From assembly GCA_944381165.1 (NCBI GenBank), contig CALWKC010000018.1, forward strand, positions 1-56,606: a stretch of DNA of 56,606 nt, in the 5' to 3' direction. Below, in pieces: positions 13,395 to 51,310 of this stretch; the first letter of the stretch is position 1, and every line of letters starts with the position of its first letter. The notes under the pieces are model-generated. The model was not told the origin of the DNA and did not search any database. It saw only the letters and a list, made by a program, of their open reading frames with translations. The translations under genes and the position numbers were made by a program. This stretch comes from an uncultured Lachnospira sp. Lineage in GTDB: Bacteria > Bacillota > Clostridia > Lachnospirales > Lachnospiraceae.

Positions 13395-13395
13395 T

Positions 13396-27851: not shown

Positions 27852-27958
27852 ATCCTCATTTCTGAGCGACTTGTTGCGAAGAGGCGATGAGAAATCCGCG
27901 CAGGCGGTTTCTCATCTGCCATCATGGCTATTTGCTTTCGCTCAGAAACAAACAGCCG
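27852..27958 (-). repeat. R2 structured leader, copy A
   Basis: On the minus strand: hairpin H1 with arms GGCTGTTTG/CAAATAGCC (27926-27957) and a 14-nt loop; hairpin H2 with arms GATGAGAAA/TTTCTCATC (27886-27916) and a bulged A; then TCGCTCAGAAA (27859-27869), an 11-base perfect complement of the H1 loop; then the Shine-Dalgarno site. Copies B (35018-35122) and C (51204-51310) share the plan with compensatory changes. Each directly precedes a start codon. Confidence 0.85.
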
Positions 27959-28012
27959 TTTTTTTCCGCAATAATATCTGTCCGTAATGCCCCTGCGCAA
28001 TTAAGTTAAATT

Positions 28013-28046
28013 AGTTATTGCTAACTTTTGATAGTTTACCATAACT
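28013..28046. promoter_or_regulatory. Tandem AGTTA-N4-TAACT dyads upstream of the CydDC-like operon
   Basis: Dyad 1 is AGTTA-TTGC-TAACT (28013-28026). Dyad 2 is AGTTT-ACCA-TAACT (28033-28046). Their centres are 20 bp apart, two helical turns. GGTTA-GAAT-TAACT stands before the other ABC operon (48166-48179). They look like binding sites for one dimeric regulator; the regulator is unknown. Confidence 0.55.
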
Positions 28047-28076
28047 CTATGCTTATTTTCAACCCGTTTTAATAAA

Positions 28077-28207
28077 AAAGAGTTCGCTTGCGAACTCTTT
28101 CGCGAGGCGCGGATTCGTAAGAATAATTACCTTTCCGCGCCTCTGCAATCCTGCGGAGCATTTTTATTCTATAGGAAAGTTCTTTGAACTTCCTATAGAA
28201 TAAAAAA
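28077..28207 (+). repeat. R1 repeat, full copy 3
   Basis: Complete R1 element: H1 at 28077-28100, the GAGGCGCGGA stem, then H3 (28161-28207). Its H3 is the reverse complement of the other copies' H3 (extra A in the left arm instead of the right, loop TTT instead of AGA). It touches the terminator of the YibE/F gene. Confidence 0.9.
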
Positions 28208-28246
28208 ATGTCACAAAATCATTAAAATTAAATGACTCTGTGACAT
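28202..28246 (-). terminator. Intrinsic terminator after the YibE/F gene
   Basis: Minus-strand ATGTCACA/TGTGACAT stem with an inner TCATTTAA/TTAATGA pairing and a U7 tract that merges into R1 copy 3. Confidence 0.85.
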
Positions 28247-28269
28247 TTTTATTTTTTTGCGCGTACCGC

Positions 28270-29448
28270 TTAATTTGTCTGTGAAATTTTTCGGCTTTCC
28301 GCCTTTTTCTTTATCATTTCTCTGTGCTTCGGTCTTGTCAGAAGCAGCGTCGTCACAAACGACGTGAACGGAACTGTGAGAATAATTCCCATTGTTCCCG
28401 CAATGCCCCGCATCAGTTCTATCGCAATGGAGTACAGGTTTGCAATCTGATGAAACTGATAGGAATAGGCGTATATAATCATAATCAGATTAAGACTTCC
28501 GCCTACATACGCAAGAATAAGCGTATTAGACATTGTTCCAATCATATCGCGCCCGATATTTATACCGGAGCCAAACATGTCTTTTGCCGAAATATCCGGA
28601 CTGTTGAGCTGAATTTCCTGAAGCGATGAGGATACCGACATTGCCACGTCCATAACTGCGCCGAGAGACGCAATTAAAATCCCTGAAAACAGCATTCCTC
28701 CTATATCAATTTTTGAGTTTTGTGCCACAAATATAAGATTTTCAATATCATCTACATTGTATCCTGTGACATGCGAGGTTTTTCCGAATATCAGCGCAAT
28801 AATTCCCGACACAACCACACCGCACAGCGTACCCAGCATCGCGGCTATTGATTTCATTTCAAGGTCCGCTATCAGGACAAAGGTTACTATCGTGGTTATA
28901 ATAACAGTGGCAACCGCTGCCAAAAACGGAGAGCAGCCTATATATATCATAGGCACGTACATAAAAATGACCACTACAACAGTAAATGCCAGCGCAAGGA
29001 TTGAATTGATTCCCTTTTTTCCTCCCACCAGCCAGATTACCGCCAGAAATGCTGCCATTAAAAGTCCTATCTGCAATTCTCGGTCATAGTTATACACGGA
29101 TACCGAAATATTATCATTATAAGGACTAATCTGTACAATCACCCTCGTACCCACTTTGCAGTTTGCGCCGTAAAGATAACCGTTGAGGCTGTAAGCCGAT
29201 TCCACTCTGCCTTTATATGTTCCTGAGGTTATACGCACAATAACCTCCTGACTGTCGCCGACCACATCATCGGCGTCAGTCTGAAGGTCTTCGCTTACAA
29301 CTTCTGTAACCACTGCTTTTGCAAACTCTGTGTTATCCTGCGCGAGCAGAGGTTTTCTTTCTACACTTTTATAGAACAGAATTACCAGCAGAGTAATAAC
29401 AGCCACAACCAGATATTTTCCGATTGAACTTATTATTCTTTTCAGCAA
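28270..29448 (-). CDS. YibE/F-family membrane protein
   Basis: A 392-aa protein with one N-terminal TM helix, an extracytoplasmic domain (about 35-120) and seven or eight further helices carrying the YibE/F pattern (GGKKGINSILALAFTVVVVIFMYVPM, then GGMLFSGILIASLGAVMDVAMSVSSSL near 245-275). Function unknown; possibly a transporter. It starts at a TTG that overlaps the stop of the metallophosphoesterase gene, so it is translationally coupled to it. The pairing with a wall-anchored phosphatase is notable. Confidence 0.85.
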   Translation of the reverse strand: MLKRIISSIGKYLVVAVITLLVILFYKSVERKPLLAQDNTEFAKAVVTEVVSEDLQTDADDVVGDSQEVIVRITSGTYKGRVESAYSLNGYLYGANCKVGTRVIVQISPYNDNISVSVYNYDRELQIGLLMAAFLAVIWLVGGKKGINSILALAFTVVVVIFMYVPMIYIGCSPFLAAVATVIITTIVTFVLIADLEMKSIAAMLGTLCGVVVSGIIALIFGKTSHVTGYNVDDIENLIFVAQNSKIDIGGMLFSGILIASLGAVMDVAMSVSSSLQEIQLNSPDISAKDMFGSGINIGRDMIGTMSNTLILAYVGGSLNLIMIIYAYSYQFHQIANLYSIAIELMRGIAGTMGIILTVPFTSFVTTLLLTRPKHREMIKKKAESRKISQTN

Positions 29449-31478
29449 TTCTCTTCTTCTCTCTTTCTCAATATAACGAACACTGTGCCAAGCGATACAA
29501 CAAGCGCTGACGCAAATATAAATATTCTTGTCATGCTGTCGCCTGTATCAGGTGAGCTCTCACCGTCCGCACCGCCGGTTGTACTGTCAGGCGCTGCTGT
29601 ATCCTGCTTAACCGTGAGACCGGCAATCGCGTTTACAACCGCTGTCTTTGCGCTCTCAAGTGTCTCGGCTGACACAACAGGGAGCACGGCGTCTGCGACA
29701 ACCTCGCCCTGCTGAAGCTGTGAGTATATCGTCTTGTCAAGCAGAGATGACTCGCCCTGCTTTAATCTGTTTGCAGTGCTTCCGTCAGCGAGAACGTCCT
29801 TATCTTCATTATTCACTATTGAGCCATATCCTTTAATGCGGTCGTTATCTGTGCCGTAGTTTTCCGTAATATCATCAATCATTTTATCCTCGGCTGTTGT
29901 ATAAGCTGCCTGAATTGTCTTTAAGCTGTCAAGAGAGGTCTTAAGCTTATCAACGCTCTCCTCAGTATACTCGACAGTAGTATCAGCCAGCTTAGCCTCG
30001 GCGTCTGCGATGACATCCTCAACGGATGCATTTTCTGAAGTCTTATTAATTGTAAAACTGTCAGCATATGTATTTCCGTTGTAGTCATAATTCTTTAATG
30101 TAAGAGAATCGTCTGTAAACTCTATTGTTGAGAAAGCCGGAACTGTATCGTTAGTTCTCTCGGCGATGTAATACGGAGTGTACTTTAACAGATTATAGTA
30201 TTTAGAACCTGAGCCTGAGCCCGTTGTTATATAGAGAGTTCCCTCCGGATTTGTCACTGTGCCTGAACTTAAATCATAATCAATTACATTTCCGTCTAAA
30301 ATCATATAGCTTCTTGAATATGTATGGTCATGACCGGTAAGACAGATGTCAACATCAAACTCATCCATAAGAGGAGCAAAAATAATTCTGTTAGTTGCCG
30401 CATCGGTGTCCGCATGAGGCTCACCTGATCCGTAAATATCGCTGTGGAAGATAACAACTCTCCACTTTGCGTCAGGATTACTCTCAACCGCCTTATTCAT
30501 AAGCTGTCTGTGCTCTTCCTGATTTCTGTTATTGCTGTTTAAGGAGATGAAAAGCACGTCGCCGTATGAGAAGTAATAATCACTTCCCGCCTCCGTAGCT
30601 CCAAGATTGTCAGAAATGTTAGGATTATTAAAATGATTTGTGTAATCAACACCCGCCGTATCATGATTTCCGATTGTAGATGCAACAGGAAGGCTTCTGA
30701 ATGCCTCCGGATAAAAATATCCCGCATACTCGCTCTCTCTGGTCTTTAAATCATCTGACGATGTTGCTCCCGACTGGTTAATCTGGTCTCCTGCTGAGAG
30801 AAGAAATGCCGCATCAGGCGCAATCTGCATAGCTGTTGTCACTGTCTTATTCCAGCCGTATGTATCTCTTGCCGTGCTTGCGTCCTGTGCAGAATAATCA
30901 GAACTGCTTCCTGAAGCGCCAATCTGAGGGTCGCCCGTGAGAATTACAGAAAAGCTGCTTGAACTGCCTGTCTTATAGCTGTACTCAGCAGACCATTCAA
31001 CATTTCCGTTTTCCGAATAATTGTCAGTATACTGATAATAATACTGTGTATTTTCCTCAAAGTAGTCCTCTATACAGACCTTGTTTGATGCAGCGTAGGT
31101 GCTTCCCTGCCAGTTCTCCGCCGAAATTTCTGTCGCTGTTCCCTTTACGACCGCTGCCTCGCTCTTCTGTCCGTCCTTCCATATCATAACGGCAGGAGTT
31201 CCCTTGTCATTGGAATACCATGCAAAATTCAGGTCACTCTCGTCTGCTCCCGGTGTCAGTGCAATTTTACCTGAGTCTGATGAAGCATTTTCTCCTCCCC
31301 ACCATACGTTGTCTCTCCATGTCTGAAATTCCACTGTGTTGTCCGCCACCTTGGACTCGTCTCCCTGAACTTCCTTTTCTCCGTAGGCAAACGCGCTGAA
31401 CGGAAGAGAAACAACCGTGAGTGTTGAAACTAAGACTGCTGCCGCCGCTTTTTTCAAAAGCTTCTTATTATTTTTCAT
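29442..31478 (-). CDS. Sortase-anchored metallophosphoesterase (purple-acid-phosphatase type)
   Basis: A 678-aa surface enzyme. A signal peptide (1-32) is followed by an N-terminal fibronectin-like PAP domain (about 45-170) and a calcineurin-like phosphoesterase core (about 175-450). Metal motifs are GDPQIG near 182, SAGDQIN near 228, GNHDTAG near 272, VIFHSDIYG near 344 and LTGHDHTYSRS near 381. A helical FIVAR-like segment (about 480-640) and the sorting signal SPDTGD (from 642), TM helix and RKREEE tail complete it. It likely releases phosphate from extracellular esters. A clear RBS AAAGGAGG precedes the ATG. Confidence 0.92.
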   Translation of the reverse strand: MKNNKKLLKKAAAAVLVSTLTVVSLPFSAFAYGEKEVQGDESKVADNTVEFQTWRDNVWWGGENASSDSGKIALTPGADESDLNFAWYSNDKGTPAVMIWKDGQKSEAAVVKGTATEISAENWQGSTYAASNKVCIEDYFEENTQYYYQYTDNYSENGNVEWSAEYSYKTGSSSSFSVILTGDPQIGASGSSSDYSAQDASTARDTYGWNKTVTTAMQIAPDAAFLLSAGDQINQSGATSSDDLKTRESEYAGYFYPEAFRSLPVASTIGNHDTAGVDYTNHFNNPNISDNLGATEAGSDYYFSYGDVLFISLNSNNRNQEEHRQLMNKAVESNPDAKWRVVIFHSDIYGSGEPHADTDAATNRIIFAPLMDEFDVDICLTGHDHTYSRSYMILDGNVIDYDLSSGTVTNPEGTLYITTGSGSGSKYYNLLKYTPYYIAERTNDTVPAFSTIEFTDDSLTLKNYDYNGNTYADSFTINKTSENASVEDVIADAEAKLADTTVEYTEESVDKLKTSLDSLKTIQAAYTTAEDKMIDDITENYGTDNDRIKGYGSIVNNEDKDVLADGSTANRLKQGESSLLDKTIYSQLQQGEVVADAVLPVVSAETLESAKTAVVNAIAGLTVKQDTAAPDSTTGGADGESSPDTGDSMTRIFIFASALVVSLGTVFVILRKREEENC

Positions 31479-31736
31479 AATAGCCTCCTTTTTCTTTTTC
31501 CTTTTCCTTTTCCACTTTCATGTTCCTTATATCTGCCTCACCTTAATACCCCGATACTCGTCTTTACCCAAAGGTATTTTATGGCAAATATCCGGAACAT
31601 ATAGTTTACTATAACAGCAGACATGTAAAGAAACTATCATGTTTTCCTTAAAAACGGGTAAAATGATTGTAAACCGGATGAAATATGCTTTGCGTGTTTC
31701 ACCGGTCCGCGCTCCGCCTGCCTTGTGCTTTCGCAC
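31479..31736. other. Intergenic region upstream of the metallophosphoesterase
   Basis: Pyrimidine-rich leader next to the start codon (31487-31515, CTTTTTCC repeats on the plus strand) and then unremarkable AT-rich sequence likely holding the promoter. No gene or convincing structure beyond the luxS terminator was seen. Confidence 0.5.
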
Positions 31737-31785
31737 AAAAAAGGGCTGCGCCTCAACGACTTTTAATCGTCAAGGCAGCAGCCCT
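31737..31785 (-). terminator. Intrinsic terminator after luxS
   Basis: Minus-strand AGGGCTGC-t-GCCT...AGGC-g-CAGCCCT stem with inner GACGATT/AGTCGT pairing, followed by six U residues. Confidence 0.9.
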
Positions 31786-31810
31786 GTAAAAAATTTTAAG
31801 CAGTTGTTAT

Positions 31811-32290
31811 TCAGTCCGGATAATTAAGACGTGCAGGCTCCGGATTGTCAAGCACCTCTGTCTTAAACTTCTCCATATAAATCTGAGCGAGCTTCAAGTT
31901 ATTGTCGAGATAATTTCCGCAGTCTCTCGGCGAATATCCCGGAATCTCACCCTCATAGCCAAGCACAAAGTCAGCAGCTTCTCTCAGAACATCGAGTATA
32001 TCCTCTGACTTTAACTCTCCGGCAAAAATAACATAAAATCCTGTTCTGCAGCCCATTGGACCGAAATAAATCGTCTTTTCACTCCACACGGGGTGATTTC
32101 TCAGAAATGTAGCCACAAGATGCTCTATCGAGTGAATTCCCGGATTATCCATAGGCGGCTCCAGATTAGGCCTTGTAAACCTCAAATCAAATGTAGTTAC
32201 AACCTCTGCTCCGATGTAATCTCTTCTCGATACATATACTCCCGGAAGCAGATTCAGATGATTTACCGTAAAACTTGCAATCTTATTCAC
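31811..32290 (-). CDS. luxS: S-ribosylhomocysteine lyase LuxS
   Basis: A 159-aa iron/zinc enzyme that cleaves S-ribosylhomocysteine to homocysteine and DPD, the AI-2 precursor, in the activated methyl cycle. Metal and catalytic residues are in HSIEHLVATFLRN (about 53-65), GPMGCRTGFY (Cys near 81) and RDCGNYLDNNL (Cys near 127). Normal length. It uses a GTG start twelve bases after GGAG. Pfs and other cycle genes are not adjacent. Confidence 0.97.
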   Translation of the reverse strand: MNKIASFTVNHLNLLPGVYVSRRDYIGAEVVTTFDLRFTRPNLEPPMDNPGIHSIEHLVATFLRNHPVWSEKTIYFGPMGCRTGFYVIFAGELKSEDILDVLREAADFVLGYEGEIPGYSPRDCGNYLDNNLKLAQIYMEKFKTEVLDNPEPARLNYPD

Positions 32291-32388
32291 TTTTATTTCT
32301 CCTTTTTTATAATATATTGCTGCAAAACCGCTTTTTCAGCCAGAGACAAAACCTTTATCCCCGTCTTTGGCAGCCGTAAATCTGTGTT

Positions 32389-33351
32389 CTAATTATCATC
32401 CGTTTCTTTCAAAAAGACAACCTTTCTGTTATCCTCATGTGACTCTATCCTGAACAGATTTGTTCCTGATATAAATTTCTGCAACGTGGAATAACCATAC
32501 TCTTTAACCTTGAAATTAGGATACATCACATGTATTTTCTGCCCGATAACCCCAAGCTCAATCCCCTTCTTGCCTGAATTTCTCACACATCTCTCAGCGT
32601 AGGCAATCACTTTATTTTTGGTATCGCTGTCCTCTTTTAATGTTACATATACCACATGATTTTCTTTTGACAGGACAAAACTGTCTATCTCATCGATAAA
32701 CTTTGACAGAGAACTGTAACCGTACTGCCGGACGTCAAAATCATTATATTTTTTCTGAATTCTGCTTCCAATCTCTCCCAGTTCTGTCTTTTTGCCCTTA
32801 TTGTTATTCTCATTAATAATCTCAATGATAACGTTTTCAATCTTGGAAACCTTGACAGCATTCGTCTTAACAGCTTTCTTCTTTCTTCTCCTGCTAATCT
32901 GGTCATCCTCATTCTCCGATTCAAGAAGCAGCTCAAGGTCCGTAAATACCGTACATGCCGCTCTGAAAGAACGCGGTGTCTTGCTCTCACCCATTCCTAT
33001 TACATCCATTCCGGATTCCTTCAGACGCACCGCAAGCCTCGTAAAATCGCTGTCACTTGACACTATGCAGAAACCGTCAACATTACCCGAATATAAAATA
33101 TCCATCGCATCAATAATAAGTGTCGAATCGGTTGCATTTTTCCCAGCCGTATTCTCGAACTGCTGCATTGCCTGAATGCCGTTGTCCCTGACAAGCTCCC
33201 GCCACTTTGCGGCACGCGAGCTTGTAAAATCACAATATATTCTTTTGTATGTGGCAATACCATATTTTGTCATCTCGCCCAAAATACTGTCAAGATATTT
33301 ATATGAGACATTGTCACCGTCAATTAAAACCGCATATTTTTTCTCTTCCAT
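32389..33351 (-). CDS. NYN-domain ribonuclease-like protein with two LOTUS/OST-HTH domains
   Basis: A 320-aa cytosolic protein. The N-terminal NYN (PIN-like) domain (about 1-145) has the acidic residues of this nuclease fold: DGDN near 11, ATDSTLIIDAMD near 75 and SSDSDF near 98. A Lys/Arg-rich linker (about 160-180) leads to two OST-HTH/LOTUS modules (about 185-250 and 258-320), each with the pattern ELGEIGSRIQKKY.DF...YGYSSLSKFI. The arrangement matches MARF1/LabA-like RNA-acting proteins. The RNA target is unknown. The start at 33351 follows a weak GGCAGG; DUF6472 lies just upstream. Confidence 0.85.
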   Translation of the reverse strand: MEEKKYAVLIDGDNVSYKYLDSILGEMTKYGIATYKRIYCDFTSSRAAKWRELVRDNGIQAMQQFENTAGKNATDSTLIIDAMDILYSGNVDGFCIVSSDSDFTRLAVRLKESGMDVIGMGESKTPRSFRAACTVFTDLELLLESENEDDQISRRRKKKAVKTNAVKVSKIENVIIEIINENNNKGKKTELGEIGSRIQKKYNDFDVRQYGYSSLSKFIDEIDSFVLSKENHVVYVTLKEDSDTKNKVIAYAERCVRNSGKKGIELGVIGQKIHVMYPNFKVKEYGYSTLQKFISGTNLFRIESHEDNRKVVFLKETDDN

Positions 33352-33364
33352 AAACCTGCCATAC

Positions 33365-33556
33365 CTACATCTGATGCCGGACAATCCTGTATTCATCATT
33401 GCTCTGATAATAAGGACAGTATGTCCTTCTTGAGCTTATATATCTTGCATAATCGTCTTCATCCATATTCACGTCACAGACATATGCCTCAAGCTCATCA
33501 TCATATACATAATTGCTGCAGTATTCACATCCGGCCGTATTGTTTTTTCCCGCCAT
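33365..33556 (-). CDS. DUF6472 small cysteine protein
   Basis: A 63-aa protein beginning MAGKNNTAGCEYCSNYVYDD and ending CPYYQSNDEYRIVRHQM, as in the DUF6472 family common in Lachnospiraceae. Four cysteines (CEYC, VCDVN, YCPYY) could bind zinc; the function is unknown. GGGGG precedes the ATG at 33556, and an extra seven-residue extension is unlikely. It ends 13 bp before the NYN gene start, so the two are probably cotranscribed. Confidence 0.85.
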   Translation of the reverse strand: MAGKNNTAGCEYCSNYVYDDELEAYVCDVNMDEDDYARYISSRRTYCPYYQSNDEYRIVRHQM

Positions 33557-33644
33557 ATATAAGCCCCCTTTACACATTTTTATATATTAATTATATCAAC
33601 TGCGGCTGACAAAAGCAAGGCTGTGAGACAGCGCCGCTTTTCTC

Positions 33645-35012
33645 TCAGTTGATGTCCCCGGCTGTCCCTTCGGCTGAGCTTTTCACCAGCTCATACACCT
33701 CAGCAAACGGGCGTCCCGTTTCGCGCGCTATCCCGGAAACACTGTCGTACTCGGGATAATATCTTATCGCTTCCCCGTTTGTGCAAATCTTTACGCGCGC
33801 GTTTCCAAGACTTGTATTTACCTCTGTTATTGTGCGCTCCAAAACACTTCTCTCAATCTTCTGCCTGCGTATGCCGATAGTAGTCGTCTCAAAAAATATA
33901 ATGCTCTCAAGCCTGTCAATATCTTTCTCGCTGCATATAACCGTAAGAAGCCAGCCCGGTCTGTTTTTCTTCATATATACAGGCGTGTAGCTGACATCAC
34001 GCGCTCCGGCTTCAAAAAGCCTCTCCATTACATAGCCGAGAACTTCTCCCGTACAGTCGTCAATATTGCTCTCAAGCTTATAAATAACGTCGCTGTATTT
34101 ATTATCTGCTGACCCCGGCTGTTCCTCCTCGATAATCATTGCGCGAAGAATACTCGGCCTCTCATAGGTGCGCTTACCGGCTCCTATTCCCGTTTTCTTT
34201 ATAGTAAATTTTGAAGGAAGCCGGTCAGTCGTCCTGACTGCTGCCACAATCGCCGCTCCCGTAGGCGTTACAAACTCGCCCTCCACCTCTATAGGTTTGA
34301 GGGCTATATTATATTTTTCCAGAATTGCGGCAACCGCAGGAACTGGTATAGGAAGAACTCCGTGCTGACACCTAACTGTCCCGTATCCCTCGCAAAGTCC
34401 CGTGACGCACACTCTGTCTATTCCCAGATTGTCAAGGCAGACTGCAGCCGCGACAATATCCACGATAGAATCGATTGCACCGACCTCGTGAAAATGCACA
34501 TGCTCTATATCCGTCCCATGAGCCTTTGCCTCAGCCTCAGCGACGATGTTAAATATTTTCAGCGCAATCTCCCTCGCTCCCGGCGTCATATCTGTACTGT
34601 TAATAATATCCGTCACATCCCTTAAATTCCTGTGCTCATGGTGATGCGTCCCGGCGCCGTGATTATGTGCATCATGATTATGCATGTGTCCCCCGTCGCC
34701 GTCGATATGTCCATCGTGATTATGCATGTGTCCGTCGGCGGAATGTGTATGTGCTTCGCCGTGTACATGTCCATGCAGATATTCCATATCGTGGTCATGG
34801 TTTTCATGCTCTTTGTCGAGCTTCACCGTAAAATCACAGCAGTCAAGCCCGGCTTTTTTTACTCTTCCAATCTCTATCTCAAATCCTTTTGCAGGAATTC
34901 CTGCAATTACCTCTCTTAAAACCTTCTCATCCGCCCCCGCGTCGAGAAGAGATGCAACTGCCATGTCACCGCTTATCCCGGAGCTGCATTCCCAGTATAA
35001 TATTCTGCTCAT
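33645..35012 (-). CDS. larC: Nickel-pincer cofactor cyclometallase LarC
   Basis: A 455-aa CTP-dependent nickel insertase that completes the nickel-pincer nucleotide cofactor of lactate racemase. N terminus MSRILYWECSSGISGDM is typical. A His/Asp-rich segment (about 72-128, many HNHD/HMHNHDGH repeats) is the metal-rich loop. Other blocks are FHEVGAIDSIVDIV near 180, EGEFVTPTGAAIVA and SNIDDCTGEVLGYVMERLF near 310. Some lactobacilli split larC by programmed frameshifting, but here it is one uninterrupted frame. The start at 35012 has GGAGA. Downstream of larB; R2 copy B and a 36-nt hairpin lie between. Confidence 0.95.
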   Translation of the reverse strand: MSRILYWECSSGISGDMAVASLLDAGADEKVLREVIAGIPAKGFEIEIGRVKKAGLDCCDFTVKLDKEHENHDHDMEYLHGHVHGEAHTHSADGHMHNHDGHIDGDGGHMHNHDAHNHGAGTHHHEHRNLRDVTDIINSTDMTPGAREIALKIFNIVAEAEAKAHGTDIEHVHFHEVGAIDSIVDIVAAAVCLDNLGIDRVCVTGLCEGYGTVRCQHGVLPIPVPAVAAILEKYNIALKPIEVEGEFVTPTGAAIVAAVRTTDRLPSKFTIKKTGIGAGKRTYERPSILRAMIIEEEQPGSADNKYSDVIYKLESNIDDCTGEVLGYVMERLFEAGARDVSYTPVYMKKNRPGWLLTVICSEKDIDRLESIIFFETTTIGIRRQKIERSVLERTITEVNTSLGNARVKICTNGEAIRYYPEYDSVSGIARETGRPFAEVYELVKSSAEGTAGDIN

Positions 35013-35017
35013 ATAAA

Positions 35018-35122
35018 TCTCCATTCTGAAGCGTTTATTGCGAAGGACCGCGAAGAAAAATTCGCGCAGGCGATTTTTCTTCTGCGATAAGCGCTGTTTG
35101 TGACGCTCCGGCACAAACAGCG
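35018..35122 (-). repeat. R2 structured leader, copy B
   Basis: Same plan as copy A: H1 with arms CGCTGTTTGTG/CACAAACAGCG (35092-35122) and loop CCGGAGCGT; H2 GAAGAAAAA/TTTTTCTTC (35052-35082) with a bulged A; then ACGCTTCAG (35026-35034), which pairs with the H1 loop with one G-U and one C-A mismatch; then GGAGA and the larC ATG. Confidence 0.85.
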
Positions 35123-35158
35123 GTATGCAAAATAAGCTATCGAGCTTATTTTGCATAC
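35123..35158 (-). promoter_or_regulatory. Long hairpin between larB and larC
   Basis: Perfect 16-bp stem, arm GTATGCAAAATAAGCT, with a 4-nt loop and no U-run. It starts 26 nt after the larB stop and touches R2 copy B. Likely an RNA processing/stability or transcript-separation signal. Confidence 0.6.
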
Positions 35159-35184
35159 ATTCCTTATTTCTGTATCTGTAAAAT

Positions 35185-35943
35185 TTATTCCCTGCCGGCT
35201 CCGCTCTCCGCCAGCCTGTTAATCTGCGTCGCCATATACCCGGCACCGAAACCGTTATCAATATTCACAACCGCAATACCGTTCGCGCAGGAATTAATCA
35301 TTGTCAGCAGCGCCGATATGCCATGCATGCTTGCCCCGTAGCCTACAGAGGTCGGAACTGCTATCACGGGATTTCTCACAAGTCCGCCCAGCACACTCGC
35401 CAGCGCTCCCTCCATTCCAGCCACCGCAACCACGCAGTTGGCTCTCTGAATAATATCCATCTCAGATAAAAGCCTGTGAATACCGCTTACTCCTACATCA
35501 AAAATTCTGTCAACGTAAGTCCCAAAAAATTCGGCTGTCTGCGCCGCCTCCTCGGCGACCGGAATATCCGCCGTGCCCGCGCTGCAGACTGCAATTCTTC
35601 CGATATGCTGCTTGTCCGCTCTCTCAGCCTTTAAAATTCTTGAAACCTCATCATAGGTCACTTGCGGAAGCTCAGCCTTTACCAGCTCATACTGATGTCT
35701 TGTAGCCCTTGTCCCGAAAACCTCGCCGTTCTCCTCAAACATTTTTTTGTATATAGAGACAAGATACTCGTCCGGCTTATTGCTGCAATATATAACCTCG
35801 GGAAAGCCCTGACGCACCTTTCTGTGCTCATCGAGCTTGGCAAATCCCAAATCCTCAAACGGCTGTCTGGCAAACAGACGCTCTGCCTCGTCAACCGTTA
35901 GACTACCGTCCTGTACCTTTTTAAGAATCGTCTTTGTATCCAT
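35185..35943 (-). CDS. larB: Pyridinium-3,5-biscarboxylate mononucleotide synthase LarB
   Basis: A 252-aa enzyme, first step of nickel-pincer cofactor synthesis: carboxylates and hydrolyses nicotinate adenine dinucleotide. The PurE-like C-terminal half has GIHRLLSEMDIIQRANCVVAVAGMEGALASVLGGLV (about 150-185) and AVPTSVGYGASMHGISALLTMINSCANGIAVVNIDNGFGAGYMA (about 190-235). AAAGGA precedes the ATG at 35943. Operon with larC; larE and larA are not in the window. Confidence 0.94.
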   Translation of the reverse strand: MDTKTILKKVQDGSLTVDEAERLFARQPFEDLGFAKLDEHRKVRQGFPEVIYCSNKPDEYLVSIYKKMFEENGEVFGTRATRHQYELVKAELPQVTYDEVSRILKAERADKQHIGRIAVCSAGTADIPVAEEAAQTAEFFGTYVDRIFDVGVSGIHRLLSEMDIIQRANCVVAVAGMEGALASVLGGLVRNPVIAVPTSVGYGASMHGISALLTMINSCANGIAVVNIDNGFGAGYMATQINRLAESGAGRE

Positions 35944-41086: not shown

Positions 41087-41827
41087 TCATGTAAGTCTGT
41101 ACAACAAATATTCGTAAAAAACTGCCCCTGCACGTAAAGAAATAAAATCATACTCAATATAATAATATGCCTCTTCTGACACACCGCTGTCATAATCTGC
41201 CCTTACGCCAATAAACGTTCCGTCAAAAGCGTCCTTAATATACTTTTCCGCTTCCTCATCTGTCATCTCATATTCATTGCCATACAGTTCAAGAAACGTG
41301 CAAAGATAAAGCTCTCCGTCATAATCCGCATCAACCGTACAGCTTGAACCCAGACTATATTCTTCAAAAGGCTTTGTAACTTCTCCATATTGATATTGTT
41401 TTACAAACGAGCCCGGACGGTTATACACCGTATATGTCACACTCTCAAGTCCTTCTCTTTCTATATCCTCGGGAAGACTCCATGCTTTGTGGTATATATA
41501 ACGTGTAAAAGACTCTCCCTCATAAGTATCGTTTGGATCTTTGCTAGGATACGATGCTGAATAACACGTATAATTGGATGCACATTCCTGAACAAATGTT
41601 TTGCCCGTTAAATACTTATCAAGCAGCGGATATGTAATCTCATATCCTAGATATTTTTCTTTTCTGTAATTCAATCCGTTTTCTCTGTACTCTTCCACAT
41701 TATAGGGTCTTTCAACTGTACCCGGCTCGTAATATACCTTTTCCTTTTCTTCTCCGCAGCCGGCCAAAACTGCCGTACACGTAATTATCACGGCAATTAT
41801 TAACGCCATTCCTTTTTTTATTGCCAT
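41087..41827 (-). CDS. Lipoprotein, paralogue 1 of a tandem pair
   Basis: A 246-aa lipoprotein with lipobox VLAGC near 23, then an EEKEKVYYEPGTVERPYNVEEY linker. A ~190-residue domain follows with LGYEITYPLL, PSKDPNDTYEGESFTRYIYHKAW, VTYTVYNRPGSFVKQYQYGEV and SSCTVDADYDGELYLCTFLELYGNEYEMTDEE. It is clearly homologous along its length to the next gene upstream, so a tandem duplication. No family recognised. RBS GGAGGG. Confidence 0.7.
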   Translation of the reverse strand: MAIKKGMALIIAVIITCTAVLAGCGEEKEKVYYEPGTVERPYNVEEYRENGLNYRKEKYLGYEITYPLLDKYLTGKTFVQECASNYTCYSASYPSKDPNDTYEGESFTRYIYHKAWSLPEDIEREGLESVTYTVYNRPGSFVKQYQYGEVTKPFEEYSLGSSCTVDADYDGELYLCTFLELYGNEYEMTDEEAEKYIKDAFDGTFIGVRADYDSGVSEEAYYYIEYDFISLRAGAVFYEYLLYRLT

Positions 41828-41855
41828 AACACACCCTCCCCTCTGAAAAATGCAC

Positions 41856-42623
41856 TCACTCCAATATCAATCTGTACAGCGAATATTCATATACATCATC
41901 ATCTGTTTCCTGCACGTTATCATAATTATATTCAAGACTGTAATACGCCTCTTCCGACTCGCAGCTATCATAATCTGCCCTTACGCCAATAAAAGTTCCG
42001 TCAAAAGCTTTTATAATATATTCATCCTCTTCTTCATCTGTCATCTCATAATCATTTCCATACAGTTCAAGGAGCGTACAAAGATAAAGTTCTCCGTCGT
42101 AATCCGCATCAACCGTACAGCTTGAAACAAGACTATATCCTCCCTTTGGATTTACAGCCGCCTCTCCCTTTGGTTTGACAACCTCACCCTGCTGGTACAC
42201 TTTTACAAATGAACCCTGCCGGTTATATACCGTATATGTCACGCTCGCAAGCCCTTCCCTTTTTATATCCTCAGGAATACTCCACGGCTTATGATAAATA
42301 TAACGCGTAAAAGGCTCCCCGTCATATTTGTCGTTTGGGTCTTTAGTCGGATAATCAGCTGCACAACACATATACTTATATGTAATACCCTGAACATATA
42401 TTTTATCTGCAATATTTTTCTCAATTACAGGATATGTAATCTCATATCCCAGATAGTTTTCTTTTCTGTATTTCAATCCGTTTTCTTCATATTCCTCTGC
42501 CTTGTATGGCTCCTCTACCGTCCCAGGCTCATGATAAACCTTTTCTTCTCCACAACCGGATAAAATTAACGCGAATACAATTATAACAGCACTTAAACAA
42601 GCTGCTCTCTTTAATCCTGTCAA
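41856..42623 (-). CDS. Lipoprotein, paralogue 2 of a tandem pair
   Basis: A 255-aa lipoprotein with lipobox ILSGC near 23, sharing with its neighbour the blocks VYHEPGTVEEPYKAEEY, LGYEITYPVIEK, PTKDPNDKYDGEPFTRYIYHKPW, YNRQGSFVKVYQQGEV and SSCTVDADYDGELYLCTLLELYGNDYEMTDEEEDEYI. It has a short GEAAVNPKGGY insertion. It starts at a TTG after GGGGGG because the nearby ATG is out of frame. The two copies have diverged clearly, so the duplication is not recent. Confidence 0.7.
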   Translation of the reverse strand: MTGLKRAACLSAVIIVFALILSGCGEEKVYHEPGTVEEPYKAEEYEENGLKYRKENYLGYEITYPVIEKNIADKIYVQGITYKYMCCAADYPTKDPNDKYDGEPFTRYIYHKPWSIPEDIKREGLASVTYTVYNRQGSFVKVYQQGEVVKPKGEAAVNPKGGYSLVSSCTVDADYDGELYLCTLLELYGNDYEMTDEEEDEYIIKAFDGTFIGVRADYDSCESEEAYYSLEYNYDNVQETDDDVYEYSLYRLILE

Positions 42624-44481: not shown

Positions 44482-44498
44482 TCTGAGCTTACATTTAA

Positions 44499-46247: not shown

Positions 46248-48019
46248 ACTTGAGCCTCCTTTTCTACCTTCCATTTAGAAGAAGTCTGATAATCCTTCCA
46301 CATTTTAGAGAACAGTCCGTCAGACGCGCAAAGCTCCTTATGTTTTCCGCACTGCTCAATTTTTCCGTTGTTGATAACATAAATTTTATCCGCGTTTATT
46401 ACCGTAGACAAACGGTGAGCAATCATGATAACCGTTCTTCCCTTTGCGAGCTCGGTAAACGCTGCCTGCACCCTGCTCTCATTGTCCGGGTCGGCAAATG
46501 CGGTGGCCTCGTCAAGAATAACAACAGGCGCATTTTTTAAAAGTGCTCTGGCAACGGCAATTCTCTGCTGCTCTCCGCCCGATAAATAAACTCCCTTTGT
46601 TCCGATTATCGTGTGTATTCCCTGCGGAAGTTTTTCGATAATATCCGTGCACTGCGCGGCATTGAGCGCCCTCATCACCTCTCTCTCGGAGGCATCAGGT
46701 TTTCCCATGCGCACATTGTCAAGAATTGACGCCTTGATAAGCCTGCTGTTCTGAAATACAAAAGATATGGTATCCATAAGCTCATTTTTAGCAATATTTT
46801 TTACGTCAACACCGCCAATCTTAACGCTTCCGCTCTGCGGGTCAAAGAAACGGGAAATAAGATTTGCAAGCGTAGATTTTCCGCCGCCGCTTGGTCCTAC
46901 AAACGCCACGGTCTGTCCGGGCTCAATCCTCATTGATATTCCGCGTATAACCTCATTTTTACCGTCATAGCTGAAATGCACGTCAGACAGCTCCACCGAG
47001 GCATCTTTTGGATGCTGTGTTCTGTCTGTCTCCGGCAGAGGTTTTAAAGACAATACGCTGTCTATTCTCTCCAATGCGTCAGCTACAATCATACCGTTTT
47101 CACTCATAAACATAATTTTTGTTAGCGTAAGAGATATGACCGGAGTGATAATAATATAGAAAATAAGATTGAGCAAAAATTCACCCGTCACACCGCTGCG
47201 TGTAAATATGAGCGCGCCTGCCACGAGAAGCGCAAACACTCCGTTAGTGGCAGTAGTATAAAACATCATCGGAAGACGGAGTTCCTTTGTATACGCGATA
47301 ACCCATTTTTCATAATTATCGATAGATGCCTTAAATTTTTTGAAAGAAAATACTGTCTGTCCGAAAGTCTTTACAACAGGTACGCCCCTGACATACTCTA
47401 CCGCCTCATTCGACATCAAATCCAGCGCGTTCTGATACTCTTTCATTTTCTGTGCCATGCGCTTTCCCGTCATCGCCATCATAATGAGAAATCCCAGCGC
47501 GACAGGCACAAGGCTTAAAATTCCAAGCCTCCAGTCAAACACAAACAGCAGGAATAAAAGCCCGCACGGCGTAGCTATCGCGCCGGCTTTGTCGGGAAGC
47601 TGGTGAGCCAGATAGGTCTCCGTCGCAGCGCTGGATTCGTTTACGATTTTCCTGAGCCTGCCGCTTCCGAAGCTCTCGGCAAGCCCCAGCGGAAGCCTTG
47701 TAATGTGCTGCATTGTATCTATTCGTATATTTGTGGCAATGCGAAAAGCCGCTATATGTGAACACATAAGTCCGGCTATATAAATAAGAACTGATACAAC
47801 AGCAAACAGTACCGCCATCCAGCCATAGTGCATAATATGTACGGCATTCCCAAAATCCGGGGCGACGCGGAGAACTTCGTCGAGAATACGCCAGATATAC
47901 CAAAACGGTACAAGCGCAACCAGCGCGCTGACGGCAGAAAATACCCATGACAGATATGTAAGAATTTTATGCCTCCCGGCATAGCCGAGAAGCCTTGATA
48001 AGTTTGATTGCTTTTTCAA
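46244..48019 (-). CDS. ABC transporter ATPase/permease, first half of a heterodimer
   Basis: A 591-aa half-transporter with six TM helices (about 15-310), Walker A GPSGGGKST near 378, signature LSGGEQQRIAVARALL near 480 and Walker B VVILDEATAFADPDNE near 505. The latter motif is common in YbtPQ-like proteins. TTG start seven bases after GGAGG; a nearby ATG is out of frame. Its promoter (TTAGAT/17/TATAAT, minus strand) contains a TTTGAG-x3-CTCAAA dyad, and the GGTTA-N4-TAACT dyad lies just upstream. Confidence 0.86.
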   Translation of the reverse strand: MKKQSNLSRLLGYAGRHKILTYLSWVFSAVSALVALVPFWYIWRILDEVLRVAPDFGNAVHIMHYGWMAVLFAVVSVLIYIAGLMCSHIAAFRIATNIRIDTMQHITRLPLGLAESFGSGRLRKIVNESSAATETYLAHQLPDKAGAIATPCGLLFLLFVFDWRLGILSLVPVALGFLIMMAMTGKRMAQKMKEYQNALDLMSNEAVEYVRGVPVVKTFGQTVFSFKKFKASIDNYEKWVIAYTKELRLPMMFYTTATNGVFALLVAGALIFTRSGVTGEFLLNLIFYIIITPVISLTLTKIMFMSENGMIVADALERIDSVLSLKPLPETDRTQHPKDASVELSDVHFSYDGKNEVIRGISMRIEPGQTVAFVGPSGGGKSTLANLISRFFDPQSGSVKIGGVDVKNIAKNELMDTISFVFQNSRLIKASILDNVRMGKPDASEREVMRALNAAQCTDIIEKLPQGIHTIIGTKGVYLSGGEQQRIAVARALLKNAPVVILDEATAFADPDNESRVQAAFTELAKGRTVIMIAHRLSTVINADKIYVINNGKIEQCGKHKELCASDGLFSKMWKDYQTSSKWKVEKEAQV

Positions 48020-48128
48020 AGCATAACCTCCTCACAAATAAATTTTGACATATATTGATACAGGAAACGCTGCAGTCGTCTCCGAATATCCGTTGAAATA
48101 ACACCTGCTGATCTGTTTAATAAATCAA

Positions 48129-48179
48129 TTAGATTATAATGTTTGAGATACTCAAATCTAATTTAGGTTAGAATTAACT
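48129..48179 (-). promoter_or_regulatory. Promoter and operators of the ABC operon
   Basis: Minus-strand -10 TATAAT and -35 TTAGAT with 17-bp spacing. A dyad TTTGAG-TAT-CTCAAA (nested within TTAGATT/AATCTAA) occupies the spacer. GGTTA-GAAT-TAACT (48166-48179) lies just upstream and matches the dyads before the CydDC-like operon. Two regulators may act here. Confidence 0.55.
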
Positions 48180-48190
48180 AACTCACATGT

Positions 48191-48217
48191 AAAAATTATA
48201 GAGCATTACTGCCCTAT
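48191..48217 (-). terminator. Terminator overlapping the tetR stop
   Basis: AAAATTATAG/CTATAATTTT stem with five U residues on the minus strand; its 5' arm covers the last codons of tetR. Confidence 0.7.
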
Positions 48218-48823
48218 AATTTTCATCCAGCCCGCGGTATAAAACTCCCTCAGCTCTTCCAGATAAATCTTCGCCTGCTCAACAGGCATCTCATGAATAA
48301 TCAATTCAAAGAAAGCTCCGAACATTCCGGTCACAAGAATATGCTCAAGCTTCGGGTCAATCTCCTTCGACGGTCTGCCCAGACTTTCAAGCACCGCCTG
48401 ATAATCATGAGTCGATTTTATCTCTATGTCTACCATTTCATCTATCATTCCCTCAAACCGCGTTCCCTGCGCACAGCATAAAAGCATCTTAAAATCTTCC
48501 AGATTATCATATGCGTACAACAGCATCTCAAGCATACAGCCTCCCGAAATTTCACCCATATTTTCAGGCTGCTGTTCCGGCGGAAGTCCGGCAAAATCCG
48601 ACTGCGCCTTGCGGTAACAATCCATTATAAATTGATAATGCCTGCCTACCAGCGCCTCAAAAAGCGCCTCCTTGCTCTCATAATAGCCATAGAATGCTCC
48701 GGTAGTAACACCGGCTTTCTTCACAATATTCCTCAGCGACGCAGATTTAAATCCCTTATCAAGGAATTCCTCCCTCGCCGCCTGATGAATTAATTCAAGT
48801 GTTGTCTTTTCAGCCTCGCTCAT
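48206..48823 (-). CDS. TetR/AcrR-family transcriptional regulator
   Basis: A 205-aa repressor. N-terminal HTH (about 10-55) with LIHQAAREEFLDKGFKSASLRNIVKKAGVTTGAFYGYYESKEALFEALV, typical of AcrR-like proteins; the C-terminal ligand domain is divergent. It is directly upstream of the ABC pair and is the obvious candidate to control it. A 26-bp near-perfect palindrome lies between its promoter and start (48838-48863), so it likely autoregulates. Ligand unknown. Confidence 0.9.
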   Translation of the reverse strand: MSEAEKTTLELIHQAAREEFLDKGFKSASLRNIVKKAGVTTGAFYGYYESKEALFEALVGRHYQFIMDCYRKAQSDFAGLPPEQQPENMGEISGGCMLEMLLYAYDNLEDFKMLLCCAQGTRFEGMIDEMVDIEIKSTHDYQAVLESLGRPSKEIDPKLEHILVTGMFGAFFELIIHEMPVEQAKIYLEELREFYTAGWMKIIGQ

Positions 48824-48837
48824 TTAATTCTCCGTTT

Positions 48838-48863
48838 ATAACAATGTTATATAACACTGTTAT
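48838..48863 (-). promoter_or_regulatory. Probable TetR auto-operator
   Basis: Two ATAACANTGTTAT half-palindromes joined head to tail with a single mismatch, 15 bp before the tetR start codon. The size and place fit an autoregulatory TetR operator. Confidence 0.65.
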
Positions 48864-48963
48864 GAGTATACAGCTTTAATTTTTTATTGTCAATAGACTT
48901 TAAAATTTCCGCTCCGGGCACGTTCAGTTCCCGCCCTGAGCCAGCCGGGGCTTCGCAGTAAAA

Positions 48964-49584
48964 CTAGCCCCGGCGTACAACTGCCTTTACATGACAGTTT
49001 TCGTAACAGTTTCCGCAGTGAAGACAGTGCTCCTGAATAATACGAAACGGTTTCGGATTTACCTTTTCCACCGCGTTCTGCGGACATACACGGGCGCATT
49101 TTCCGCAGCCGATACAGGCGTCTGTAATCTCATATCCCTTTTTTTCAGCATTAACGCCGCCGACCTCGTATGTCTCTCTGAATATCGGATTTACTCCGAG
49201 ATTAAAATACTCTATGCTAAATCCCCTGATACAGAAGACAATTCCGATTTTCCTTGTATCTCTCGGATATACATTTTCCAGATACGGCTGTTCAGAAAAA
49301 ATTGTGTTAATCCATTTCTCCTGTTCATCGTCCGGCACCGGTACTGCTCTTCCCGATAAGCGTATGCTTTCCTTATACATAGTATACCCTGATATCTGCA
49401 CCCTCCCGTCTCTGAGAAGCTGTTTACAAAATTCTTTTCCTCTTGCAGTAAAAAAATAGAGCGCATCTGCCTCAAAATGAATGGCGCTTATATTTCTTAT
49501 CTGCGGCGCCCCGCTGCTGTCAACGGTGGCAAAATTCAGCACACCTACATATCCCAATTTTTTTAAACATATCTCTGCATTCAT
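48964..49584 (-). CDS. Flavin/PNPOx-like domain fused to a 2[4Fe-4S] ferredoxin
   Basis: A 206-aa redox protein. N-terminal ~145 residues form a split-barrel flavin-binding (pyridoxamine-phosphate-oxidase-like) domain (VGVLNFATVDSSGAPQIRNISAIHF start). The C terminus holds two 4Fe-4S motifs, CIGCGKCARVCP near 158 and CLHCGNCYENC near 189. It is last in the radical-SAM peptide locus and could supply electrons to the radical SAM enzyme or reduce the product. Fusion of these two domains is known in anaerobes. Confidence 0.85.
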   Translation of the reverse strand: MNAEICLKKLGYVGVLNFATVDSSGAPQIRNISAIHFEADALYFFTARGKEFCKQLLRDGRVQISGYTMYKESIRLSGRAVPVPDDEQEKWINTIFSEQPYLENVYPRDTRKIGIVFCIRGFSIEYFNLGVNPIFRETYEVGGVNAEKKGYEITDACIGCGKCARVCPQNAVEKVNPKPFRIIQEHCLHCGNCYENCHVKAVVRRG

Positions 49585-49593
49585 ATGTATACC

Positions 49594-50172
49594 TCACTCT
49601 ATAATTCGGATTCTGCCTTTATTTACAGGCTTCTCTTTCGGGTAATCGCCCTCGTGGTAACCCAGCAGCACAAAGCATCGTGCCCTGTAATTATCAGGGA
49701 TTTCCCATTTTTTCATTAATTGCTCTCCAAATTTATTGTCAAATGTCTCCTCAGCCCTTGCGACAATACAGGAGGCAATTCCGAGCTCTGTCGCCATAAG
49801 CACCATATTTTCCGCGCAGCAGAACGCATCGGGAATGCTGTACAGAAAATTTGCTGGAGCAAATATCGCGCAGACTGTGGGAGCTCCGTAAAATCCGCTC
49901 CTGATACCGGGGTCGTCTATGAGACTGGGCTGTTCCTCCGACACGAAGCTTCCTGCCAGACGGCTTCTGTCCATGCAGGCGGCATTTATTTTTCCGAGCT
50001 GCTCCGAGAGTTCAGTGCTGCGTATCGCTATTATTATACTTCTCTGTCCGCCTCCGGCATTAGGTGCATATGCTCCGGCGGTCATAACAGCCTCCAGCTC
50101 CTCCTGTGAAATCTGTTCTTTTTTGTACCTGCGTATTGAGCGTCTCGTCTTAATCAGCTCTGCCAGCTGCAT
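49594..50172 (-). CDS. Nitroreductase-family flavoprotein
   Basis: A 192-aa FMN-dependent oxidoreductase. It starts MQLAELIKTRRSIRRYKKE with the conserved RRSIR FMN site, then AGAYAPNAGGGQRS near 38 and the C-terminal MATELGIASCIVARAEETFDNKFGEQL. It could oxidise or reduce the peptide product or act generally. Ribosome site AAGGAGG overlaps the radical-SAM stop, so it is translationally linked with it. The ATG at 50172 is clearly preferred over an upstream extension inside the radical SAM gene. Confidence 0.9.
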   Translation of the reverse strand: MQLAELIKTRRSIRRYKKEQISQEELEAVMTAGAYAPNAGGGQRSIIIAIRSTELSEQLGKINAACMDRSRLAGSFVSEEQPSLIDDPGIRSGFYGAPTVCAIFAPANFLYSIPDAFCCAENMVLMATELGIASCIVARAEETFDNKFGEQLMKKWEIPDNYRARCFVLLGYHEGDYPKEKPVNKGRIRIIE

Positions 50173-50174
50173 AT

Positions 50175-51200
50175 CTATACCTCCTTCCAGCACTGAGGGT
50201 CGGGTGCATACATATTGCCGTGATAACCTGCCGCAACAGCCGGACACCCCCGGCAAAACCGCAGCAGTTCACATTTGGAACATTTCTCAAACTTTTCGTA
50301 CACACGGTATTTATCCATTTCCTGTCCCGTAAATAAATCGTATAAATCATCTGTGAGCGCGTTTCCTACTTTGCTGTCCACAATACGTCTGCACGCATAT
50401 ACATCTCCGTCAGAAAGAATTGTGAGATGACAGTTGCCGCAGTTGCAGCCGTCATATACATACTCGTCATCAGGGTAAGCTTTCGGGTCAAACAGTCCCT
50501 TTTCATATTTAAAAAGTGTCCACAAATGGTCCTTCAGATTAAAGGTTGTTCCGCTGTCCTTATATTGTTCAAATTTTGCCCATGCCTGCTCCATCATCCA
50601 GTGATATTCCTCAGGCGAACAACAGGTCTCTTTATCCTCCGCTGACGGACAATATCTCGCGAAAGCAAAAATATCCACTTTATTTTCTACAACTACATCA
50701 ATGAGCTCCGGCAGTTCTTTATAATTCAACCTGGAAACCGTAAACATCACCGCCACGTCAATTCCCGCTTTTTTAAGATAAGGTATAACCTCCAATGTTT
50801 CATCGTAGGAGCCCGGTCTGCGGATTTTATCATGTGTTTCCCTGAGTCCGTCAAGCGAAAGCTGATACTTTCTGCAGCCGTAAGCCGCCAGTCTGCGGCA
50901 TACCTCCTCAGTCAAATGAAACGGATTTCCCATAAGAGCAAACGGTATTCCCGCTATTTTCAACAGCTTTGCGAGCGTCCAGAACTGCGGGTGCATAATC
51001 GGGTCTCCGCCCGTAATATACAGATACGGCAGTCTCTGTGCTTTCCTGCAAAATTCCTGACAGTTTTCAATAACCGTAATCATATCTTCAACCGCCATTT
51101 CCTTGAATTTTGCATGGCTCCCCAACGCGTATATATAACAATGCTTGCACCTTTGGTCACAGGCTTCTGTAATATGCCACTGAAACGCAAAATATTCCAT
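50175..51200 (-). CDS. Radical SAM/SPASM peptide maturase (ACGX-type system)
   Basis: A 341-aa enzyme. The radical-SAM cluster motif CDQRCKHC (Cys14, Cys18, Cys21) is followed by a TIM-barrel core with YITGGDP near 70 and LSLDGLRETHDKIRRPGSYDE near 120. The C-terminal SPASM region binds auxiliary Fe-S clusters: CNCGNCHLTILSDGDVYACRR near 253-275, CSKCELLRFCRGCP near 313-326 and the terminal CWKEV. Typical of RiPP maturases. Ahead lies a short Cys-Gly-repeat peptide gene; the pair matches the 'ACGX system' known from protein family catalogues. Likely forms thioether or related crosslinks. The start at 51200 has GGAGG and R2 copy C upstream. Confidence 0.92.
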   Translation of the reverse strand: MEYFAFQWHITEACDQRCKHCYIYALGSHAKFKEMAVEDMITVIENCQEFCRKAQRLPYLYITGGDPIMHPQFWTLAKLLKIAGIPFALMGNPFHLTEEVCRRLAAYGCRKYQLSLDGLRETHDKIRRPGSYDETLEVIPYLKKAGIDVAVMFTVSRLNYKELPELIDVVVENKVDIFAFARYCPSAEDKETCCSPEEYHWMMEQAWAKFEQYKDSGTTFNLKDHLWTLFKYEKGLFDPKAYPDDEYVYDGCNCGNCHLTILSDGDVYACRRIVDSKVGNALTDDLYDLFTGQEMDKYRVYEKFEKCSKCELLRFCRGCPAVAAGYHGNMYAPDPQCWKEV

Positions 51201-51203
51201 AAT

Positions 51204-51310
51204 ATCCTCCATTCCGAAGCGTTTTATTGCGAAGGAACACGAAGAAAAATTAGCGAATGCGATTTTTCTTCTGCGATAGAAGCTGTTTGTGACGCTTCGG
51301 CACAAACAGC
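51204..51310 (-). repeat. R2 structured leader, copy C
   Basis: H1 with arms GCTGTTTGTG/CACAAACAGC (51282-51310) and loop CCGAAGCGT; H2 GAAGAAAAA/TTTTTCTTC (51241-51271) with the bulged A; then ACGCTTCGG (51214-51222), a perfect nine-base complement of the H1 loop; then GGAGG and the maturase start. It lies between precursor and maturase genes. Confidence 0.88.

Follow-up and report, generated by a model that had tools for sequence, protein, structure and literature searches.

A repeated RNA-folded element between ribosome-binding sites and start codons of Lachnospiraceae genes, probably a non-autonomous mobile element

The stretch of uncultured Lachnospira sp. DNA analysed here, contig CALWKC010000018.1 of assembly GCA_944381165.1, is 56,606 nucleotides (nt) long and is called the window. 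It contains three copies, A, B and C, of a sequence of about 105 nt on the minus strand, which a sequence-only reading of this DNA had described as a structured leader shared by unlinked genes. The copies are confirmed at 27854–27956, 35019–35121 and 51207–51310 by the bounds of a covariance model, R1, whose sense matches inside the window are exactly these three. Each ends, as had been claimed, at the Shine-Dalgarno (SD) sequence of an unrelated gene, GGAG or GAGG, 6 bases before the ATG. Copy A precedes a CydD-like ABC gene (ATG at 27847; TIGR02857, 396.2 bits, which is below the cut-off of 435), copy B precedes larC (ATG at 35012; TIGR00299, 201.8 bits, also NF052512), and copy C precedes the radical SAM gene of an ACGX system (ATG at 51200; TIGR04340, 606.8 bits).

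The two hairpins described earlier, H1 and H2, are both present. The H2 stems, GAAGAAAAA/TTTTTCTTC and GATGAGAAA/TTTCTCATC, are perfect and the bulged A is retained. In copy A, H1 (27927–27956, minus strand as for all parts) has the loop TTTCTGAGCGA at 27938–27948, complementary to the tail TCGCTCAGAAA at 27859–27869, the 3' strand of a pseudoknot, which is followed by the SD GAGG at 27854–27857. Its H2, of stem subtype GATGAGAAA and with the bulged A, lies at 27883–27920 (by eye). Copy B has H1 at 35093–35121 (loop CCGGAGCGT at 35103–35111), H2 at 35049–35086 (stem GAAGAAAAAT) and the pseudoknot tail ACGCTTCAG at 35026–35034, then AATGGAG at 35019–35025. It additionally has an upstream palindrome, P0, at 35123–35158 (GTATGCAAAATAAGCT cgat AGCTTATTTTGCATAC), which forms the 5' end module of complete elements and is lacking in copy A. 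Copy C has H1 at 51282–51310 (loop CCGAAGCGT at 51292–51300), H2 at 51238–51275 (stem GAAGAAAAAT) and the tail ACGCTTCGG at 51214–51222 as 3' pseudoknot strand, then AATGGAGG. The loop-to-tail pairing that had been noticed is contiguous over 9 pairs in copy C, over 7 in copy B (GGAGCGT/ACGCTTC) and over 10 in copy A when counted by script, or 11 by eye.

These copies are three of 62 full or partial places in the source genome. Copy A gave 33 BLAST matches (E up to 10) and copy C gave 44 (E up to 1); six weak copy A matches (E of at least 0.4) and four opposite-strand copy C matches were excluded and five overlaps merged. The places comprise 41 near full length, 12 that consist of the 3' tail and SD only (19–33 nt) and nine otherwise partial, one of them at a contig end. 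Some of the tail-only places may be chance matches, as they partly match common ribosome-binding sequence. The 5' part is kept without the 3' part in one clear case only, C21:30705. The covariance-model search that had been proposed was made with R1, which was built from 20 subtype C copies and leaves the pseudoknot outside the model; it found 52 matches in the source genome and between 0 and 55 in each of the others from the genus. The set of 110 copies used below contains 41 from the source genome, left from 68 R1 matches after 17 on the opposite strand (P0 with H1) and 10 partial sense matches were dropped, and 69 from other genomes, left from 94 after 25 below 34 bits were dropped. The loci behind these 69 are the best per genome plus hand-picked places among the matches listed, and are neither a full nor a random sample.

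From 5' to 3' the element is comprised of an SD and spacer, P0, an optional mini-hairpin AGCCATGCAAAGCATGGCT, H1, H2 with its bulged A, the loop-complementary tail, AATGGAGG, a spacer that is commonly 6 nt, and the ATG. The body is about 105 nt, or about 150 nt including P0. P0 is typically GTGTGAAAAATAAGC-loop-GCTTATTTTTCACAC, with arms that vary in concert. A strict script, which misses imperfect ones, finds P0 in 57 of the 110 copies and 20 of the 41 in the source genome, and a looser pattern finds it in 68 copies, a few of them false. Copies bearing P0 have a second SD upstream of it. The H2 types in the source genome are GATGAGAAA, GAAGAAAAA and GACGCAAAT, each with the matching strand. 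The mini-hairpin or one similar was seen by eye between P0 and H1 at loci L016, L029, L017, L041, L033 (2914), L122 and L077. Two loci of genome G032, L120 and L121, have an extra hairpin of the type GGTAAAC-loop-GTTTACC beside H2, and at L012 (C37:6522–6736) two copies stand in head-to-tail order, with the P0 and body of the second placed directly after the first copy's SD.

The position of the element at gene starts is very regular. A start codon with an open reading frame (ORF) of at least 40 codons lies directly behind 103 of the 110 copies, at a spacing of exactly 6 nt in 71 of the 103. Among the seven exceptions, two in G043 have a longer tail with the SD further on, and some have an ATG whose ORF is shorter. 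In a second set, drawn from named genomes, 78 of 81 copies are at starts (ORF of at least 50 codons or running off the locus edge), 59 of the 78 at 6 nt. In both sets most starts lie 6 nt behind GGAG. As controls in the same loci, 1231 of 5829 other GGAG and 6 of 16 other GGAATGGAG occurrences lie at starts. This set covers 80 of at least 117 stretches from an exact-pattern scan (82 matches, one dropped at a locus edge); the scan pattern itself contains GGAATGGAG, and two of its loci, L242 and L254, were already in the first set. Twenty-six of the 41 source-genome copies are within 150 nt behind a same-strand ORF of at least 100 codons and probably lie between the genes of operons.

The downstream genes tested are functionally unrelated, and include those for PyrI, deformylase, CobO, shikimate kinase, TP_methylase, LarC, the CydD-like protein and the radical SAM protein. 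Comparison of 181 downstream proteins gave 16 similar pairs, of which six are between the near-identical sister genomes, two are records fetched twice and eight are between distinct non-sister genomes. No coherent controlled gene set kept between species was found among these 181. That the downstream genes seldom recur between genomes argues against a regulon.

The loop pairs with its own tail over at least 7 contiguous bases in 101 of the 110 copies; 500 tail swaps give 52 on average and never more than 63. The arms change wholesale between lineages yet still pair (CCGGAGCG/CGCTCCGG, TTCTGAGCGA/TCGCTCAGAA), with lineage-specific arms including CCGCAGGCAC/GTGCCTGCGG in G012 and CCGCAGACG/CGTCTGCGG in G034. 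An alignment, A4, of 60 matches from 55 sources was fitted to H1 and H2 and not to the pseudoknot; its cell counts are inflated by related copies and its statistics ignore phylogeny. In A4, 94.9% of cells are paired, both sides change in 25 of 36 pairs, and 301 cells are doubly changed; shuffling gives 91 such cells, and none of the slid structures has more than 41. The paired cells amount to 98.2% in H1, 95.6% in the pseudoknot and 92.3% in H2; because the pseudoknot is absent from R1, its value is not an effect of fitting. Covariation is thus present in H1, H2 and the loop-to-leader helix, and together with the tail swaps it supports the selection on RNA structure that the sequence-only reading had claimed. 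That reading had named two findings, either of which would make the repeat an ordinary palindrome: copies mostly away from start codons, or a loop-to-leader pairing without covariation genome-wide. Both sets of copies and the pairing figures above show the opposite.

Cells with G-U outnumber those with A-C by 63 to 20 overall, 41 to 6 in H1 and the pseudoknot and 22 to 14 in H2; these counts omit one ill-defined pair (columns 60–76), with which they become 66 to 31 overall and 25 to 25 in H2. The excess of G-U over A-C points to folding of the transcribed strand. In nested minimum-energy folds, copies A and C give up the full H1 for the long-range helix that encloses H2, and copy B retains H1 when folded with an additional 60 nt on its upstream side. 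H1 and the loop-tail helix occupy mostly different bases, and in G032 H1 has 8 pairs followed by two free bases before the loop-tail strand. Judged from these bases, the two helices could coexist as an H-type pseudoknot, or they may alternate, as in the two-state switch that the sequence-only reading had suggested. Folding of 76 copies gave the SD a mean probability of being unpaired of 0.285, or 0.347 when the tail was blocked, values that say little about its accessibility.

R1 matches are present in 21 of 61 genomes, the source genome counted. Within the genus the copies per genome are 52 in the source genome, then 55, 27, 16, 10, 10 and fewer, and there are none in G001, G002, G003, G007, G011 and G013, all 99% complete. 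G043, from another family of the order, has 12. A class-wide sample gave matches in 3 of 393 genomes, the source genome among them, an absence that is soft because 10 candidates were scored per genome. The labels of 80 listed records, of at least 117, are mostly Lachnospiraceae or Acetatifactor, Eisenbergiella, Roseburia and Lachnospira, with others at broader clostridial ranks; among the records listed, one labelled Bacteroides and two (one assembly) labelled Bacillus are perhaps mislabelled bins. Mean identity in A4 is 0.79 within genomes and 0.69 between them. Within single genomes it is 0.93 in G032, 0.91 in G012 and 0.73–0.77 in the subtype-mixing G034, G043, G016 and source genome (G000), which we read as lineage-specific bursts. 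Carriage by viruses was not seen in IMG/VR with one exact pattern, and a blastn search with copy C found nothing among phages or plasmids.

Occupied and unoccupied orthologous sites are both seen at era, rsmI and pyrI. In the sister genome G020, seven of 12 copies are at sites with a copy or remnant in the source genome and five are without a counterpart among the loci compared; of these five, one has no orthologue in the source genome and one is the era site. Between pyrB and pyrI the full element is present in the source genome alone among 20 legible loci (by eye; the G004 row is out of register and G020 gave no match). G009 has a small remnant there, and G016 and G018 hold shorter relatives without H2 (by eye). 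These relatives, at L160 and L166 respectively, have a short P0 and one hairpin whose loop pairs with the tail GCGCAG before AAATGAGG (by eye), and a wider superfamily may exist beyond the element. At rsmI the element is present in the source genome and G020 among 19 loci, with several other rows out of register. At era, a gene named by eye, the G020 element is bracketed by AACGCTCAGAAATGGAGATTA on both sides, and the source genome has a single AACGCTCAGAAATGGAGATTA. None of 17 other loci has it; G014 has the faintly similar AGCACAGAAAAGAGG. As AACGCTCAGAAATGGAGATTA is itself an element tail, a body may have been lost from the era site or acquired there anew.

The SD regions to the left and right of the element are alike beyond permuted pairs. 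In the source genome the longest common stretch is 8.1 compared with 5.4 (p 0.0005; 24 copies, three of which, L041, L048 and L049, have no true P0), and over all 69 flank pairs it is 7.0 compared with 5.6 (p 0.0005). Unusual sequences are among the matched pairs, for instance CGAGGTAGT and GACCAGT. For the source genome, this supports a duplication of the target SD.

What is the element? We think it likely that it is a non-autonomous mobile element of Lachnospiraceae, folded as RNA, that resides between the SD and the start codon. The transcribed strand would fold into P0, H1 and H2, the H1 loop joining the 3' tail in a pseudoknot. The element occupies the SD-to-start spacer in sense orientation, often probably within operons. 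After insertion the old SD would lie upstream of P0, and the SD right behind the pseudoknot would serve the downstream gene, which would keep its start since the element brings its own SD. On this account the SD repeat would be a target duplication of variable length, the conserved fold would serve mobility and not a host ligand, and the expression of host genes would presumably be only mildly altered. The earlier description as a mobile or recruited cis-regulatory RNA is upheld for its mobile or recruited part. It is not supported as regards a shared regulator of chosen genes, given that targets differ between genomes and that copy number ranges from 0 to 55 within the genus.

Several observations weigh against a mobile element. 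No transposition has been observed, and the only clean polymorphic pair, era, has a solo tail at the unoccupied site, so that loss is as likely as gain. Taken singly, G032 (14 copies; 6.1 compared with 6.0; p 0.09 and 0.38) and G012 (five copies; p 0.19 and 0.16) show no significant flank repeats, and G016 (six copies) shows them by only one of two measures (0.03, 0.09), so that a target duplication of the plain kind does not hold generally. In H2 by itself, G-U is only weakly in excess. There are no terminal inverted repeats (68 copies, a mean of 5.1 of 18 matches compared with 6.1 in shuffles). Lastly, no mobiliser was found, and neither Y1 transposase nor reverse transcriptase genes follow copy number in 22 genomes of the genus. 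Y1_Tnp genes are present in 13 of these 22, including the source genome. Ten copies each are present in G004 and G005 (72% and 86% complete), where no Y1_Tnp was found, and G002 and G003 have Y1_Tnp without copies. Reverse transcriptase (PF00078) is present in six of the 22, and in neither the source genome nor G020, the two with the highest copy numbers. A reverse transcriptase of the past, or one outside the draft assemblies, may still have been involved. As candidates for the mobiliser, the Y1 transposase and reverse transcriptase were set aside for want of a clean link to copy number.

One more specific form of the mobile-element reading, which we hold as doubtful, is a bacterial element resembling a short interspersed nuclear element (SINE). 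The folded transcript would be the mobile or recognised form, and a putative machinery acting at ribosome-binding sites would paste it between SD and start with variable SD duplication, leaving 5'-truncated copies and solo tails. The H1 loop as a guide for the target flank was rejected for now: among 41 left flanks, at least 6 pairs were observed in seven, compared with 8.2 expected at other ribosome-binding sites, in a test weakened by small background sets outside the source genome.

Could the element instead be an ordinary DNA palindromic repeat, similar to repetitive extragenic palindromic (REP) sequences or miniature inverted-repeat transposable elements (MITEs), with an incidental RNA fold and insertions elsewhere purged by selection? 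It is short, repeated, intergenic and lineage-specific, its hairpins could suit a transposase acting on single strands, for which the Y1 genes noted above would be available, and G-U and A-C are near balance in H2. It also has the MITE traits of being short, non-autonomous, multicopy and patchy among relatives, with no conserved reading frame; for the fixed-length target-site duplication that is a further MITE trait, the SD-region repeats vary in length. However, the covariation of loop and tail and the 41 to 6 ratio of G-U to A-C in H1 and the pseudoknot point to RNA or a sense single strand, and the placement at 6 nt is very exact. The lack of terminal inverted repeats also counts against this reading, and an inverted-repeat transposon was rejected on that ground; the ends of four Y1 loci look unlike the element (by eye only). 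Overall we consider this explanation unlikely.

A true cis-regulatory RNA, a riboswitch-like or protein-binding leader spread over a regulon, in which H1 and the long-range helix alternate to switch translation, is less likely again. The covarying fold directly 5' of the SD, the sense orientation at starts and the folds of copies A and C, which favour the long-range helix over the full H1, are all as such a leader would have them. Against this, the genes served range from pyrI, deformylase and shikimate kinase to cobO and larC, only eight of the 16 similar protein pairs link distinct non-sister genomes, six near-complete genomes of the genus have no copy, and H1 and the pseudoknot could coexist. 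A scan of the whole window found no Rfam family over the gathering threshold other than a tRNA; at lax settings, the surroundings of copy C yielded a single sub-threshold miRNA match. Finally, a mobile translated leader, in which a short peptide starts within P0 from the old SD and is coupled to the gene that follows, is very improbable: P0 does set an RTG at SD distance, and 39 of 68 P0 frames extend to 20 nt or less from the downstream SD or beyond it, but the other 29 stop earlier, the P0 stem buries its own start codon, the one peptide tried has no Pfam or NCBIfam match, and the same DNA is read in different frames (VPERHK and AGASQ), so that letters and fold are conserved and the peptide is not.

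REP elements are short palindromes dispersed by a RAYT (Y1) transposase acting on single strands, and a GTAG/CTAC foot tetranucleotide is a feature of the REP/RAYT system. In contrast, the copy number of the present element shows no clean link with Y1 genes, and the element is at gene starts. The preQ1 and SAM-II riboswitches are leaders with an H-type pseudoknot beside the SD. The element likewise has a pseudoknot adjoining the SD; unlike them it has no shared regulon and no Rfam match, and its SD is just outside the pseudoknot. The BOX, RUP and SPRITE repeats of Streptococcus pneumoniae are, in the part of the source available, described as modular, structured, typically under 200 bp, in dozens of copies and lineage-restricted, traits shared by the element; they likely affect co-transcribed genes, and large BOX copies create reading frames (PMC3049150). 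Placement between SD and start is described for none of them in that part (PMC3049150). The Correia/NEMIS and ERIC sequences resemble the element as small, mobile, co-transcribed sequences with RNA hairpins that influence mRNA, but their effects are ascribed, in the portion consulted, to mRNA stability or to processing by RNase III. The main text nowhere uses 'ribosome binding', 'start codon' or 'pseudoknot' (PMC2229807). No earlier description of the element was found in open-licence literature, as judged from titles and abstract openings of the papers listed.

The window holds other features. In the ACGX system (50178–51560, minus strand), the gene for the radical SAM/SPASM protein (TIGR04340) is preceded by ACG-containing repeats (repeat D7, by eye), and copy C lies between the repeat stretch and the gene. 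A second dispersed repeat, of 147 nt with hairpins AGAGTTCGCTTGCGAACTCTTT and TTTTTATTCTATAGGAAGTTC, is at 55–201, 1697–1843, 28061–28207 and 51688–51834, with parts at 13342–13402 and 15901–15934; its copies are 84–94% identical to the reference copy, and a similar stretch lies just 5' of an element copy on contig C41. Adjacent similar genes at 41087–42623 (minus strand) appear to be a tandem duplication (DNA identity 76 and 85% over two stretches). The element also runs in frame into the CydD-like gene (26105–28000, minus strand) and LarC (33645–35261, minus strand), and at L037 (1900–2913, plus strand) an open frame leads from it into a TlyA-like gene (by eye).

Because of such open frames, automatic annotation could extend proteins falsely at the N terminus or call short hypothetical ones. 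If the mobile-element reading is true, the element could be what lies behind small hypothetical proteins and incorrect N-terminal extensions annotated in Lachnospiraceae. Bacteria would then have interspersed repeats that target the ribosome-binding site itself, leave a working site behind and are able to spread cheaply through housekeeping operons. This would raise the question of which enzyme recognises SD-to-start spacers, and the element could provide leader structures ready to be turned into regulators by evolution.

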